NCBI RefSeq assembly: GCF_004785955.1
Contig: NZ_ML214300.1
Location: forward strand, 947,789-1,011,788
DNA length: 64,000 nucleotides
Source of the DNA: Halostella litorea
GTDB lineage: Archaea; Halobacteriota; Halobacteria; Halobacteriales; Natronoarchaeaceae
Direction: 5' to 3'
How positions within the stretch are numbered: the stretch's first letter is position 1; every line of letters begins with the position of its first letter. The notes beneath the pieces were generated by a model. The model was given only the letters and a program-made list of their open reading frames with translations, was not told the origin of the DNA and did no database searches. The position numbers and the translations under genes are program-made. Shown piece after piece: positions 51,948 to 57,659 of this stretch.

Positions 51948-54900
51948 ATGGGATCCGAACAGCCGCCGCCGGGAGACGCCGGTAGCGAGGGGACGCTGCC
52001 GGTACGTCGGCGGACGGTGCTCAAGTCCGCTGCGGGGTCGCTGGGCGTCGGGGTCGTCGGGGGCGCGGGGACCGCCGCCGGACGGGACGCGGCGACGCTC
52101 TCGGAGGGGTTCGAGGACTACGCGGTCGGCGACTACCCGAACGGGTGGAAGAAGAACGGAAACACCGACCAACAGGTCGTCGACGCGCCGACAGCCAGCG
52201 GCAGCAGGGCGCTGCGGCTGACAGGCAGTTCGGGCAGCTGCTGGGAGGCGATCGCGAACGCGCCGATAGAGCTGCCGGAGTCCGGCTCCGCGACGCTGCG
52301 GCTCTCGGTGTACCCGACGACGAACGGCGAGGTCGGCTGCCACGACAACCGCGGGGACGTCGGCCTCGGGACGAGCGCCGAGTCGTGGGACGACGGCGAC
52401 GGCTGGCGGCTGGTCCAGTTCGGCCTCGACGGCCGGCTGGTCGGCCCCGGCGGCACCGACCTCGGGCCGTACGAGACCGGACAGTGGCAGACCCTGGAGT
52501 TCACCTACGACCGGACGGACACGGGGGTCAGCCTCAGCTTCGCCGTCGACGGCGAGGAGCGCGGGTCGGCGACCCGGCCGGTCACCGACTTCGAGAACGA
52601 CATCTCGTGGCTCACGCTGTCCAGCGGCGAGTTCACGGTGTACTGGGACGACGTGGTGCTGACGACCGGCGACGGCGGCGGGCCGTCGGCGGCGTTCACC
52701 TTCTCGCCCTCGGAGCCGGTGACGGACGAGACGGTGCAGTTCGACGCCGGCGGCTCCGAGGACCCCGACGGCAGCATCGCGAGCTACGAGTGGGACTTCA
52801 CCGGGGACGGCTCGTTCGACGTTACGGGGCGGACCGTCGACCACCGGTTCACCGACGACGTCGACTACGACGTGACGCTCCGGGTGACCGACGACGCCGG
52901 GAACCAGGACACGACGACCCGGACGGTCCCGGTCAGCGGGGCCAACAGCCAGCCGGACGCCGCGTTCACCTACTCGCCGTCGGACCCCGCCGTGGGCGAC
53001 AAGGTGACGTTCGACGCCGGCCCGTCCGCCGACCCCGACGGGACGGTTCAGGCGTACAACTGGGACCTCAACGGGAGCGGCACCGCGGACGTGCGCGGCG
53101 AGGTCGTCCGCCACACGTACGAGTCGGCCGGGGAGTACACGGTGACGCTCGCAGTCGAGGACGACGACGGGAGCCACGACACAGCCCAGCGGACGGTCCC
53201 GGTCGGCGAGGGCAACGCCGGCCCCACCGCCGACTTCACCGTCTCGCCGTCGGACCCGGCGGTCGGCGAGCGAGTGACCCTCGACGGCAGCCCCGCGAGC
53301 GATCCCGACGGCAGCATCGCCAGCTACGAGTGGGACGTCGACGGCGACGGCAGCTACGAGACGGGGGGTCAGGCGGTCGGCGTGACGTACGACTCGGCGG
53401 GGACGTACGACGTGACGCTGCGGGTCACGGACGACGACGGCGCGACCGACACCGCGACCGGGACCGTCGGCGTCGCGACGGCGAACGAGCCGCCGTCCGC
53501 GGCGTTCGACTACGCCCCGGCCGACCCGGCGGTCGACGAGCGGGTCACCCTCGACGCGTCCGGGTCGACGGACCCGGACGGGACGGTCGCGACCTACGAG
53601 TGGGACCTCGACGGCGACGGCAGCTACGAGGCGACCGGCCGAACCGTCGACCACGCGTTCGGCGAGGCGGGCGACCACGCGGTCACGCTCCGGGTGGCCG
53701 ACGACGCCGGCGCGACGGACGACGTGACCCGGACCGTGTCCGTCGCCGAGCTACAGGGGCCGGAGCCGGACATCTCGGTCTCGACCGCCGAGCCGGCGCT
53801 CGGCGAGGAGGTCACGTTCGACGCGTCCGGCTCCACCGACCCCGACGGAACGGTCGCGACCTACGAGTGGGACCTCGACGGCGACGGGGAGTACGAGAGC
53901 CGCGGCCAGCGAGTGGCCCACCGGTTCGAGACGGCCGAGTCGACGGAGGTGTCCCTGCGGATCACGGACGACGACGGGCTGAAGGGCGTCGCCCGGCGGG
54001 AGGTAAACGTCGGCGCGACGTTCCGCAGCCGGCGCTCGGAGAAGCTCGACCTCGCGGAGTCGATCGACGACGACTCGGTCCTCTCCACGCTCGACCCGCT
54101 GACGGAGGTTGCCGGCGACCGGGAGCTCGCGGCGTACACGATCGGCGAACTGGAGACGGCGGCCGCCACCGGGGAGATCAGCCCGGGCGCGGGCAACGAG
54201 GCCGTCCGCCGGCTGCGTATCGGCGAGGAGGCGACCCACGGCGTGCTGGAGGCGATAGGTCCCGGCAACGACACCACCGGGCTGCGGTTCGCCCGGCGGC
54301 TCGCGGAGTCGGTGTGTAGCGCGGGGATCAAGCTCCTGCTGTTCAAGATCGCCATCGGCGAGAAGCTCGCGTCGATGGCGTCCGGAGTGCTGGCGAGCGG
54401 CCTGCTGTACACGGCCGGGGAGACGATCGCCGACGGGGTCGACTACCTGTTTACGAACATGCTCCCGGCCGACGACGGCCGGACCGAAGCACGCACGGAG
54501 GCGAAATCGGAGTGCCGGAACCTCTGGGGCGACATCGCCGCGGGGGCGGCGGCGACGGCCGACCTCATCGCCGAGGCGATAGAGAGCCTCGCGGACGTCG
54601 TCGAGGGGATCGTCCGCGCCACCGTCGAGTTCTCCCGCGTCGCCCCGCTGTCGATGTCGTCGCCGCCGGAGTCGCTCGGGGACATCGCGTTCGGAACCAG
54701 CATCTGGAAGGAACAGATCCAGTTACACAGCGGGTTCCAGCCCGACAGCGTGGCGGGCGGGCTCCCGGGGAGCACGGCCGCGGTCGAACGGGCCCGCGAC
54801 GACGCCGTCGCCACCGTCAAACGGAACTTCGAGAGCATCGCGTCGGACCTCGACACGCTGAAGCAGGACCTCGGCGACTTCAACGTCGTCGACTCGGTCG

Positions 54901-55115
54901 CCGACATCGGCGAAGCGGACTCCTGGGCCGACTACGGCCTCCAGGCCCTGCAGGCGCTCGTCTCGCTGCTGTCGAGCATCTTCAGCCTGCTCGTGGAGAG
55001 CTTCGCGGTCGGCGCGACCGGCACCGCGATCCTGATCGCACGCAAGATACACGCGGAGGTCGTCGACAGCGCGCTCGCCGGCGAACACCGCGTCGACGGC
55101 TGGACGCCGGGGTAA
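51948..55115 (+). CDS. Tat-exported protein with five PKD repeats and a large unknown C-terminal domain
   Basis: 1055 residues. A twin-arginine signal (RRRTVLKSAAGSLGVGVVGG, residues 20-39) without lipobox is followed by a concanavalin/LamG-like beta-sandwich (about 50-243, starting SEGFEDYAVGDYPNGW). Five PKD domains of about 89 residues follow (nt 52681-54018), each with a DPDG / YEWD / DVTLRVTDD pattern. The last 365 residues match nothing I know: helical, with hydrophobic stretches near SMASGVLASGLLYTAG and ALVSLLSSIFSLLVESFAVG that could insert in a membrane. First gene of a three-gene unit. Neighbouring PKDs are nearly identical at DNA level in places, suggesting recent expansion. Confidence 0.85.
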   Translation: MGSEQPPPGDAGSEGTLPVRRRTVLKSAAGSLGVGVVGGAGTAAGRDAATLSEGFEDYAVGDYPNGWKKNGNTDQQVVDAPTASGSRALRLTGSSGSCWEAIANAPIELPESGSATLRLSVYPTTNGEVGCHDNRGDVGLGTSAESWDDGDGWRLVQFGLDGRLVGPGGTDLGPYETGQWQTLEFTYDRTDTGVSLSFAVDGEERGSATRPVTDFENDISWLTLSSGEFTVYWDDVVLTTGDGGGPSAAFTFSPSEPVTDETVQFDAGGSEDPDGSIASYEWDFTGDGSFDVTGRTVDHRFTDDVDYDVTLRVTDDAGNQDTTTRTVPVSGANSQPDAAFTYSPSDPAVGDKVTFDAGPSADPDGTVQAYNWDLNGSGTADVRGEVVRHTYESAGEYTVTLAVEDDDGSHDTAQRTVPVGEGNAGPTADFTVSPSDPAVGERVTLDGSPASDPDGSIASYEWDVDGDGSYETGGQAVGVTYDSAGTYDVTLRVTDDDGATDTATGTVGVATANEPPSAAFDYAPADPAVDERVTLDASGSTDPDGTVATYEWDLDGDGSYEATGRTVDHAFGEAGDHAVTLRVADDAGATDDVTRTVSVAELQGPEPDISVSTAEPALGEEVTFDASGSTDPDGTVATYEWDLDGDGEYESRGQRVAHRFETAESTEVSLRITDDDGLKGVARREVNVGATFRSRRSEKLDLAESIDDDSVLSTLDPLTEVAGDRELAAYTIGELETAAATGEISPGAGNEAVRRLRIGEEATHGVLEAIGPGNDTTGLRFARRLAESVCSAGIKLLLFKIAIGEKLASMASGVLASGLLYTAGETIADGVDYLFTNMLPADDGRTEARTEAKSECRNLWGDIAAGAAATADLIAEAIESLADVVEGIVRATVEFSRVAPLSMSSPPESLGDIAFGTSIWKEQIQLHSGFQPDSVAGGLPGSTAAVERARDDAVATVKRNFESIASDLDTLKQDLGDFNVVDSVADIGEADSWADYGLQALQALVSLLSSIFSLLVESFAVGATGTAILIARKIHAEVVDSALAGEHRVDGWTPG

Positions 55116-55118
55116 CAG

Positions 55119-56111
55119 ATGACGGACATCCCACACCACCACGACCGACTCGCCGAGGCGATCCGAACCGGAGACATCGAGACGGCGCTCGACGCCCAGC
55201 GGGCGATCACCGAGGCCAGCCCGCCGCTTCCGGAACTGCTCGACGAGTTCCGGACGGCGGTTGAGCGCGGCGACGACGCGCAGGCCGAGACGCTCCTGAG
55301 ACGGATCGAGGGCCGGATACAGGAGCGCAGACCGGAGGAGCGGTCGTCCGTCGAACAGGCGGCGCTGACCCGCGAGGAGGACGACCCGGACCGGGAGACG
55401 CTGGCGGCGTTGCAGGCACACATCGAGAACGCGACCGAGACGAGCCTCGACAGGGCCGGCTTCCTCGGGGCCGCGACGACGTATCTGGAGGACCGGTCGG
55501 CCGATACCGGCGACGTCACCGACGCGGCCGACACGCTCCAGGGCAAGGAGCGGGATCTACAGTCGTCGGCCGAGAGCGTCGCCGAGACGCTCGAATCGAC
55601 GACGCTCCCCGCCAGCGTCGAGGTCGTCGCGATCGACGGGGCCGCGACCGAGCGGGCCGTCGACGAGGAGTTCGCCGTCGCGGCCACCGTCGAGAACGTC
55701 GGCGACCGCCGCGCCGGGGACGTGACGGTGACCGTCGAGGCCGAGGACGGGTTGGTCGCCAGCCCGGACCGGCGTGGGCCGGTCCCGGTCGAACCCGGCC
55801 AGCGCCGCGACGTCGAGTTCACGGTGCTTGCGACGAGGCCCGGGGAGTACTCCCTCGACTTCCGGGTCGACTCCGAGAGCGGCGGCGTCTCCAGCGGCGA
55901 GACCACGGTGGTCGTGCGCGAGGAAGCCGGGGAGCCGGCCACGCCGGTCGAGGCCATCGCCGGGCCGGAGGGCGAGGTGACGTTCGACGGCGTCGTCACC
56001 GCGATCAGCCTCTACAACCAGGACGAACCGGTCCCCGAGACCGACGGGATGACCCTCGACTTCGCCGACGTGGTCGGCGTCATCGCCGCGTACAACCGGC
56101 GGGGGTCATGA
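55119..56111 (+). CDS. CARDB-like / dockerin-like protein without signal peptide
   Basis: 330 residues, three bases after the PKD gene. Residues 1-160 are charged, helical repeats (e.g. HDRLAEAIRTGDIETALDAQ, then ELLDEFRTAVERGDDAQAET), TPR-like in spacing. Residues 165-275 form a CARDB/NEW3-like beta-sandwich (AVAATVENVGDRRAGDVTVT). The C-terminus FDGVVTAISLYNQDE followed by LDFADVVGVIAAYN is dockerin-like, a pair of helices with weakened calcium loops. No signal peptide is visible, which is odd for parts usually found outside the cell. It may ride with a partner or act inside. The stop overlaps the next start. Confidence 0.8.
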   Translation: MTDIPHHHDRLAEAIRTGDIETALDAQRAITEASPPLPELLDEFRTAVERGDDAQAETLLRRIEGRIQERRPEERSSVEQAALTREEDDPDRETLAALQAHIENATETSLDRAGFLGAATTYLEDRSADTGDVTDAADTLQGKERDLQSSAESVAETLESTTLPASVEVVAIDGAATERAVDEEFAVAATVENVGDRRAGDVTVTVEAEDGLVASPDRRGPVPVEPGQRRDVEFTVLATRPGEYSLDFRVDSESGGVSSGETTVVVREEAGEPATPVEAIAGPEGEVTFDGVVTAISLYNQDEPVPETDGMTLDFADVVGVIAAYNRRGS

Positions 56112-57427
56112 GACGGGCGTTCGCCGTCGTGGCCGTCGCCCTGCTGCTCGCGGTCCCGGCCGCCGCCGCGACCGTGCCGATCGCCCTCTCGGTGTCCGAC
56201 CCGGGCGAGACGACCCCGGGAGGCACCGTCGAGGTCACGGTCGCCGTGACGAACGACGGGGACCGGCCGTCGGACGCGATGGGCGTCCGGGTCGAAGGGG
56301 TCCCCGACTCGCTGACCGTCGCCGAGATCCGGTCGCCGAACGGCTCCGTCGCCGCGAACCGCAACTCCGTCTTCTGGACCGACCCGGTGCCGGCCGGCGG
56401 GACGGTGACGGCGACGTACGTTGTCGCGGTCGACGAGGCGGCCCCGACCGACGCCTACGAGTTCACCGTCCGGGCCGCGAGCGGGGACACCGAGACTCGC
56501 CGGAGCGTCACGGTGGACGTGGTGCCCCCGAACCGGGCCCCGGAGGCGTCGGTCGACGCGCCCACCGAGGCGACCGTCGGGGAGGCGGTGACGCTTGACG
56601 GTTCCGGGTCGTCGGACCCTGACGGGACGATCGAACGCTACGAGTGGGACCTCGACGGCGACGGCAGCTACGAGGCGACCGGCGCGACGGTCGAACACGC
56701 CTTCGAGGAGCCCGGGGAGCGGGCGGTCGAACTGCAGGTCACCGACGACGACGGGGCGAAGGCGATGCAGGTGCGCGACGTCCAGGTGCGCGCGGCGACG
56801 ACCGACGGTAGCGGCGACGACGACGGCGACGGGAACACGACTGCGGCGGCGGCCGCCGCCCACGACGGGTCGCCGTTCGACCTGGAGAACGCGCCGCTCC
56901 TCCTGGGGGCCGCGGGCGCGGCGCTGCTCGTCCTGTTCGCCGGCTGGTACCTCGTCGGCGGCGACGACGGCGACGACGCGGCTCCCGCCGACGGCTCCGA
57001 CCCGGGCGCGGCGAGCGGGCCGTCGCGGAGCGGGGATCCCGGACCGACAGACGAGGACGCGCCGCCGGACGACCGGTCCGCGTCGCGGGAACGCGCCGGT
57101 CGCGAGCGGCGGGCGGCGAACGGTAGGCAGGCCGCGGGTGGAACTGGGCGGGTGGCCCGTGGGGAGCCGGACCGGCACGTCGGCGGCGGAGCCACCGCCG
57201 CGGAATCGCGGCCGAACGACGACCCCGCACCGCCGAGCGGCGGCGACGCCGACCCGCCGAGCGCTGCCGCTCCCGACAGCGGACCGGAATCCGGGGCCGG
57301 CACCGAGCCCGAGGGGACCATCGAGTCCCCGGCGTACTGCCCACACTGCGGGGCGGCGCTCGCGGAGTACGACCTGCCGACCCTGGAGTTCTGTCCGGAC
57401 TGCGGATCGGAACTGGACGACAGGTGA
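56108..57427 (+). CDS. membrane protein: CARDB-like + PKD outside, zinc ribbon inside
   Basis: 439 residues. Sec signal peptide (MRRAFAVVAVALLLAVPAAA), CARDB/DUF11-like sandwich (about 25-135: VTVAVTNDGDRPSDAMGVRV), one PKD domain (about 140-235), one membrane helix (about 262-284, LLLGAAGAALLVLFAGWYLV), a long disordered cytoplasmic region, and a C-terminal zinc ribbon CPHCGAAL...CPDCGSEL. The order signal-outside-membrane-ribbon is that of a receptor-like or assembly protein. It is translationally coupled to the previous gene. Its PKD shares 46 consecutive identical bases with the fourth PKD of the first gene. Confidence 0.83.
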   Translation: MRRAFAVVAVALLLAVPAAAATVPIALSVSDPGETTPGGTVEVTVAVTNDGDRPSDAMGVRVEGVPDSLTVAEIRSPNGSVAANRNSVFWTDPVPAGGTVTATYVVAVDEAAPTDAYEFTVRAASGDTETRRSVTVDVVPPNRAPEASVDAPTEATVGEAVTLDGSGSSDPDGTIERYEWDLDGDGSYEATGATVEHAFEEPGERAVELQVTDDDGAKAMQVRDVQVRAATTDGSGDDDGDGNTTAAAAAAHDGSPFDLENAPLLLGAAGAALLVLFAGWYLVGGDDGDDAAPADGSDPGAASGPSRSGDPGPTDEDAPPDDRSASRERAGRERRAANGRQAAGGTGRVARGEPDRHVGGGATAAESRPNDDPAPPSGGDADPPSAAAPDSGPESGAGTEPEGTIESPAYCPHCGAALAEYDLPTLEFCPDCGSELDDR

Positions 57428-57443
57428 GCGGCCGGCGACCCGT

Positions 57444-57659
57444 TACGCGCGCTTCTCGACGCGCCGGACCCCCTCCAGGAGGGAGCGCCGTTCGAAGTAC
57501 GCGAGTTCGGCCACGACGACCAGCGTCGCGACGGCCACCACCGTCACGAACGCGCCGCGCCGGTCGACGTAGAGGTGACAGCAACAGCGGGAAAAACAGC
57601 GCGGTCCCGGCGACGCCGACGGAGGTAAAAGTCGCGGACGGGCGGAGGCGGTTACCGCG
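57444..57659 (-). pseudogene. remnant of a small two-helix membrane protein
   Basis: No intact gene of the usual kind fits this 232-base gap, but the minus strand reads like a broken membrane protein. One frame gives SVGVAGTALFFPLLL; a shift of one base then gives CHLYVDRRGAFVTVVAVATL and ...VVVAELAYFERRSLLEGV, ending at a stop at 57446-57444. The second part could alternatively be a 34-residue single-helix protein starting at a GTG. The composition (hydrophobic core, basic and acidic flanks) is too membrane-like to be chance, but a start codon for the first part is missing. Confidence 0.35.

Follow-up and report, generated by a model that had tools for sequence, protein, structure and literature searches.

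A candidate modular surface unit in haloarchaea: a Tat substrate with exchangeable heads paired with a signal-less partner

In a 64,000-nucleotide stretch of the Halostella litorea genome (the window), two adjacent genes, A and B, encode what we propose to be a modular two-protein surface unit that would be assembled in the cytoplasm, co-exported in folded form via Tat, and fitted with exchangeable heads, a reading to which we give somewhat better than an even chance. In haloarchaea that carry the pair, B follows A in fixed order, A bears a Tat motif and B no signal, the heads of A are swapped before a constant C-terminal domain (A-CTD), and A-CTD and B are co-inherited; at the window's site, A, B, and a third gene, C, are present or absent as one block. 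The most telling features are the swappable heads and the constant pairing of a Tat substrate with a partner that has no signal, neither of which was in an earlier note on this DNA. The core is the A-B pair, and the novelty likely lies in head exchange combined with co-export. No literature description of an A-B system was found.

Architecture of the three genes

Gene A (51948..55115, + strand) encodes a multidomain protein of 1055 aa with a Tat signal, gene B (55119..56111, +) a partner of 330 aa without a signal, and gene C (56108..57427, +) a protein of 439 aa. The assignments rest on the ORF, coding score, and Tat motif for A, on the ORF, profile matches, pair reading, and signal scan for B, and on the ORF and domain search for C. 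All three reading frames are intact, and the same frames were scored as coding by an independent frame-scoring gene call, which put the start of A at 52017 and so trims into the Tat motif. The coordinates and intact frames agree with the tight spacing described in the earlier note, a gap of 3 bases between A and B followed by an ATGA overlap between B and C.

The N terminus of A (51948..52088, +; VRRRTVLKSAAGSLGVGVVGGAGTAAG) is a twin-arginine signal, VRRRTVLKSAAG, with the motif VRRRTVLKS. It is followed by a weakly matched lectin- or jelly-roll-like head (52089..52682, +; approximately aa 48 to 245), for which the Laminin_G_3 (E value of 1.3e-4) and CBM_4_9 (E value of 0.0075) matches are both under the curated cut-offs and which is conserved in loci L043, L044, L047, and L048. 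Both the Tat nature of the signal and the lectin-like head had been missed by the earlier note, which did count five PKD domains in the exported protein; these correspond to five PF18911 stretches (52710..54017, +).

The remainder of A is the A-CTD (54018..55112, +), a 365-aa domain with hydrophobic segments. The reading in the earlier note presupposed that this domain was not part of a well-known family, and no known family or fold was found for it. Searches of Pfam and NCBIfam gave no family match, and the predicted model, which is all-helical and of moderate confidence (pLDDT of 73, pTM of 0.72), matched nothing in the PDB at an E value of 1e-3 in Foldseek. Several candidates were set aside. 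The "Senescence" family was reached by three members at an E value of 0.004 or worse, which we took as composition, and apolipoprotein and talin appeared in a PDB sequence profile search at an E value of 0.006 or worse, reflecting coiled-helix bias. The structural neighbors from Foldseek and VIA-align were only designed helical bundles and long helices (best Z score of 9.2), which are not meaningful for helical models. In 24 of 26 A-CTDs, hydrophobic segments peak at 1.67 to 2.87 (Kyte-Doolittle scale), above the bulk of the window's proteins; two A-CTDs lack any segment above 1.6. In view of this pattern, the A-CTD may be in contact with the membrane or shielded by B.

B was modeled with higher confidence (pLDDT of 88) as an Ig-like CARDB domain between a helical N-terminal part and a helical tail. 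The N-terminal part (aa 1 to 165; 55119..55613, +) has six helices in the model, and profile matches in this region tell true B proteins from other CARDB proteins. The CARDB domain (55617..55919, +) matches PF07705 with an E value of 1.7e-6 (28.6 bits versus a curated cut-off of 22.7) and the fold of CARDB structure 3idu with a Z score of 12.2, and numerous other Ig folds were matched as well. Fusexin, transglutaminase, and complement were rejected as clues to the function of B, as their fold matches span the Ig-like domain only. The earlier note had described B as a CARDB/dockerin-like protein without a signal peptide; the CARDB domain and the missing signal hold, while the dockerin-like tail (55944..56108, +) rests on helices in the model and on a relative, L113, the one B protein among 26 with a Dockerin_1 match (E value of 2.5e-8), the window's B having no direct match. 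Other tails include a weak PGF-CTERM in L108 (E value of 0.025, below the cut-off) and a transmembrane-like tail in L109, so that the PGF-CTERM and dockerin support for B tails is weak or limited to single relatives.

C combines a signal peptide, a DUF11/NEW3-type domain, one PKD domain, a transmembrane helix, and a CxxC...CxxC zinc ribbon predicted to be cytoplasmic, and the domain search thus bears out its description as a membrane protein with PKD and a zinc ribbon. It was found in 9 of the loci read, all inside two A-CTD clades. Its anchors vary: most are PGF-CTERM-like, L105 has a transmembrane tail, and a transmembrane helix with zinc ribbon is confined to the window and its nearest relative, G003. 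All nine loci with C carry the long dockerin-like B tail, and L107 has such a tail without C. The Cohesin score in the window's C was not significant (E value of 0.32), and no cohesin appeared among the families shown for the nine C proteins. In L117 (7177-7752; genome G266), a 191-aa membrane protein begins 2 bases after B and is possibly an alternative third gene in that clade. The three-gene surface module proposed in the earlier note is plausible as a surface-type system, but its conserved core is A plus B, with C as an add-on, and sensing across the membrane does not hold up as a general design, given the nine loci with C and the two with the ribbon.

Pairing, co-inheritance, and head exchange

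A profile search across 391 genomes of the class detected the A-CTD in 22, spread over 16 of the 86 genera; the two or three weakest of these may be chance matches. Among nine genomes of the family, it occurs in the window genome, in one congener at 83% identity, and, as a weak match, in a third genome with a B match directly beside it. No A-CTD was found outside the order among 393 genomes of the phylum, and no relatives were found on plasmids (three queries) or virus contigs. This spread indicates an accessory family that, as far as sampled, is restricted to one haloarchaeal order.

Full-length B matches coincided with A-CTD places across the 391 genomes; weak class-wide matches to the B profile at positions ~160 to 270 or 226 to 330 came from ordinary CARDB or CARDB-dockerin proteins and were excluded from the counts, and the glycosidase-like match at position 2060032 of contig C1 in G010 (L115) was discarded as a false positive. 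In all 26 pairs (24 genomes), B is the next gene downstream of A and shares its strand, and the gap between them runs from -8 to +6 bases. The reading in the earlier note depended on the genes remaining neighbors in relatives, and no intact relative has A and B apart. Five intact loci were detected via B only (L117 to L120 and L122), and each has a Tat-signal gene with a helical C terminus directly upstream, which limits selection bias. Imperfect copies also exist. In L119 (5584-8240; G328), a frameshift or a natural split has left A, which precedes an intact B, as two overlapping ORFs that meet midway through the C-terminal domain, and decayed B-like remnants without A lie in L116 (6251-6964; G186) and L121 (5496-5825; G110).

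The A-CTD and B trees share their main groups, and the distances are correlated with an r of 0.91, which none of 2,000 permutations reached; removal of near-duplicates left a correlation of 0.87. This agreement supports an A-B unit, and linked descent without contact would give the same agreement. Strict adjacency across many genera, the congruent trees, and block presence or absence make it hardly credible that A and B are chance neighbors, ordinary secreted multidomain proteins without a shared function, unless the sampling carried a severe bias, even though proteins with PKD or CARDB domains abound in haloarchaea.

The block behavior was seen at the window's insertion site, where the cassette is flanked by an S-adenosylmethionine hydrolase-like gene and a thermosome subunit gene. 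In G001, of the same genus, the flanking genes are 335 bp apart and the cassette is absent; the gap holds an unrelated Tat lipoprotein of 807 residues in G002 and another gene in G004; G003 has all three cassette genes in the window's order. The comparison of these four sites indicates that A, B, and C come or go here as one block. A-B-C is a genuine unit, since congeners carry all three between the same neighbors or none. The empty site of G001 (L173, 2431-2607) holds a 58-aa ORF that resembles the start of the Tat lipoprotein of G002 (L174) joined to its end. Beyond C, the window retains ~50 residues from the C terminus of an amino-acid permease (57431-57601, -), a remnant of a gene that is intact directly downstream of C in L043 (12102-13355).

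The heads of A differ by locus before the constant A-CTD, some without a clear match. Lectin-like heads with PKD domains occur in the window, L043, L044, L047 to L050, and L104; Laminin_G_3 heads in L042, L114, and L120; PQQ beta-propeller heads in L045, L105, L107, L110, and L111; VWA heads in L046, L051, and L118; an FG-GAP propeller head in L113; and a DUF285 head in the second copy of L110. Profile comparison did not join the lectin-like heads of the window type with those of the L042 type. Placed on the A-CTD tree, the 10 head states require 14 changes. One case is that of L111 and L113, whose A-CTDs are 82% identical over 386 aa while their heads, a PQQ propeller and an FG-GAP propeller, are unlike; the first 240 residues of their B proteins are 57% identical and the tails 25%. 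The two genomes belong to different families, and cassettes thus seem to travel between lineages. Genome G269 (L110, L111) has three A-B cassettes, two with PQQ propeller heads and one with a DUF285 head, and two of them are in tandem. In L046 (6953-7906; G095), a VWA-headed pair adjoins a MoxR-type ATPase and a series of membrane genes on the opposite strand; in other settings, VWA proteins are frequently associated with MoxR.

Proposed export of the signal-less partner

By a motif and hydrophobicity rule, every A of the 26 pairs is Tat-like and 25 of the 26 B proteins lack a signal, the single hit tracing to a false internal start; the same crude rule, which is not a trained predictor, assigned an N-terminal signal to each of 18 other CARDB proteins taken from 13 related genomes. 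The scan of B took in upstream in-frame starts. A signal-less B with outside-type domains, always right after a Tat substrate, fits co-export as a folded complex.

We therefore consider the following scheme. A would be the Tat substrate, an exchangeable binding head on a constant A-CTD, and B its dedicated partner. The two would fold and bind one another in the cytoplasm, and B would leave the cell through the Tat pore, which transports proteins in folded form, as a hitchhiker on A. Outside, presumably at the cell surface, a base of A-CTD and B would display the head, tethered by the hydrophobic helices of the A-CTD or by the tail of B; where that tail is dockerin-like, the tether would probably be the membrane-anchored C, for which we suggest an anchoring role. 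The heads may bind sugars or proteins, in adhesion or recognition. In haloarchaeal nitrate reductase, NarG carries a Tat motif and NarH does not, and the dimer is presumed to pass through Tat already folded (PMC8301774); NarGH is thus the local precedent for such co-export. A more far-reaching version, which we put forward tentatively and somewhat short of an even chance, would make A-CTD plus B the universal base of an archaeal surface-display system not described before, built inside and exported whole by Tat, with unrelated recognition heads exchanged between species by recombination, a non-enzymatic case of Tat hitchhiking.

CARDB-type Ig folds also occur in cytoplasmic proteins, and B could thus stay inside. 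It might act as a chaperone that shields the hydrophobic helices of the A-CTD until the Tat pore is reached and is then released. The hydrophobic stretches of the A-CTD, which exceed those of the window's soluble proteins in 24 of 26 cases, would suit such a role, and B has a conserved helical N-terminal part, no signal, and a gene adjoining A. However, its CARDB domain and its dockerin-like, PGF-CTERM-like, or transmembrane tails are typical of outside proteins, the signals on all 18 control CARDB proteins point the same way, and a redox-type chaperone would have no need of such diverse tails. We regard this explanation as unlikely.

Rather less probable still is that A is a tail-anchored Tat membrane protein, with A-CTD hairpins in the membrane and B bound to them on the cytoplasmic side, the pair sensing outside ligands. 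Most A-CTDs do have hydrophobic segments, the heads are of ligand-binding types, and bacteria are known to have tail-anchored Tat substrates (PMC10924467). Given the two A-CTDs that have no segment above 1.6, membrane insertion is not a general feature, and B has outside-type domains and no signaling domain; no conserved kinase or regulator lies beside the pairs.

A modular membrane-active toxin, in which the heads would pick target cells, the A-CTD would insert into their membranes, and B would be a co-exported accessory, is very improbable. A conserved helical domain with hydrophobic segments beneath changing receptor-type heads, the patchy spread (22 of 391 genomes), and presence or absence of the cassette as a block would all suit a toxin, but comparison with solved structures brought out no striking likeness to a pore-forming toxin, the pair has no constant immunity-like membrane gene beside it, and B has tails of an anchoring type.

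Known systems and significance

Tat hitchhiker export is known mainly for enzymes. Haloarchaeal NarGH and Escherichia coli PaoABC resemble the A-B pair in that one partner has a Tat signal and the other has none, the genes are adjacent, and the complex is thought to be exported folded (PMC8301774, PMC4273604). These, however, are cofactor enzymes with a fixed catalytic subunit, whereas A and B appear to be surface binding modules with exchangeable heads for which co-export is proposed. Described tail-anchored Tat substrates share with A a Tat signal and C-terminal hydrophobic segments, but they end in a single C-terminal helix (PMC10924467), in contrast to the large helical A-CTD with its dedicated partner.

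Among systems with shuffled parts, VARTIG of the Thermococcales is likewise an archaeal module of large Ig-fold surface proteins (PMC8416519), but its hypervariable part is a C-terminal Ig domain, while A has a variable N-terminal head and a constant helical C terminus. A survey of archaeal CARDB neighborhoods reported no module closely resembling VARTIG elsewhere (PMC8416519). Polymorphic toxins are also modular secreted proteins that arise by domain swapping, but they have a constant N-terminal delivery part and a variable C terminus, the reverse of A, and no toxin domain or immunity gene was recognized at A-B loci. Antiphage defense models (PADLOC) gave only weak partial matches (E values of 0.0024 to 0.027). 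Cohesin-dockerin scaffolds, as in cellulosomes, recall the dockerin-like tail of window-type B and its Dockerin_1-bearing relative, but C has no significant cohesin, enzymes are absent, and many pairs do not have a dockerin-like tail.

The analysis offers a testable role for two protein families that had no name and documents head swapping between haloarchaeal families. If modular surface assembly with folded co-export is correct, the folded-protein export route of haloarchaea would also ship preassembled modular surface devices, beyond single proteins and redox enzymes. This would bear on the heavy reliance of haloarchaea on Tat, and the A-CTD/B base would amount to a natural platform for plug-in heads.
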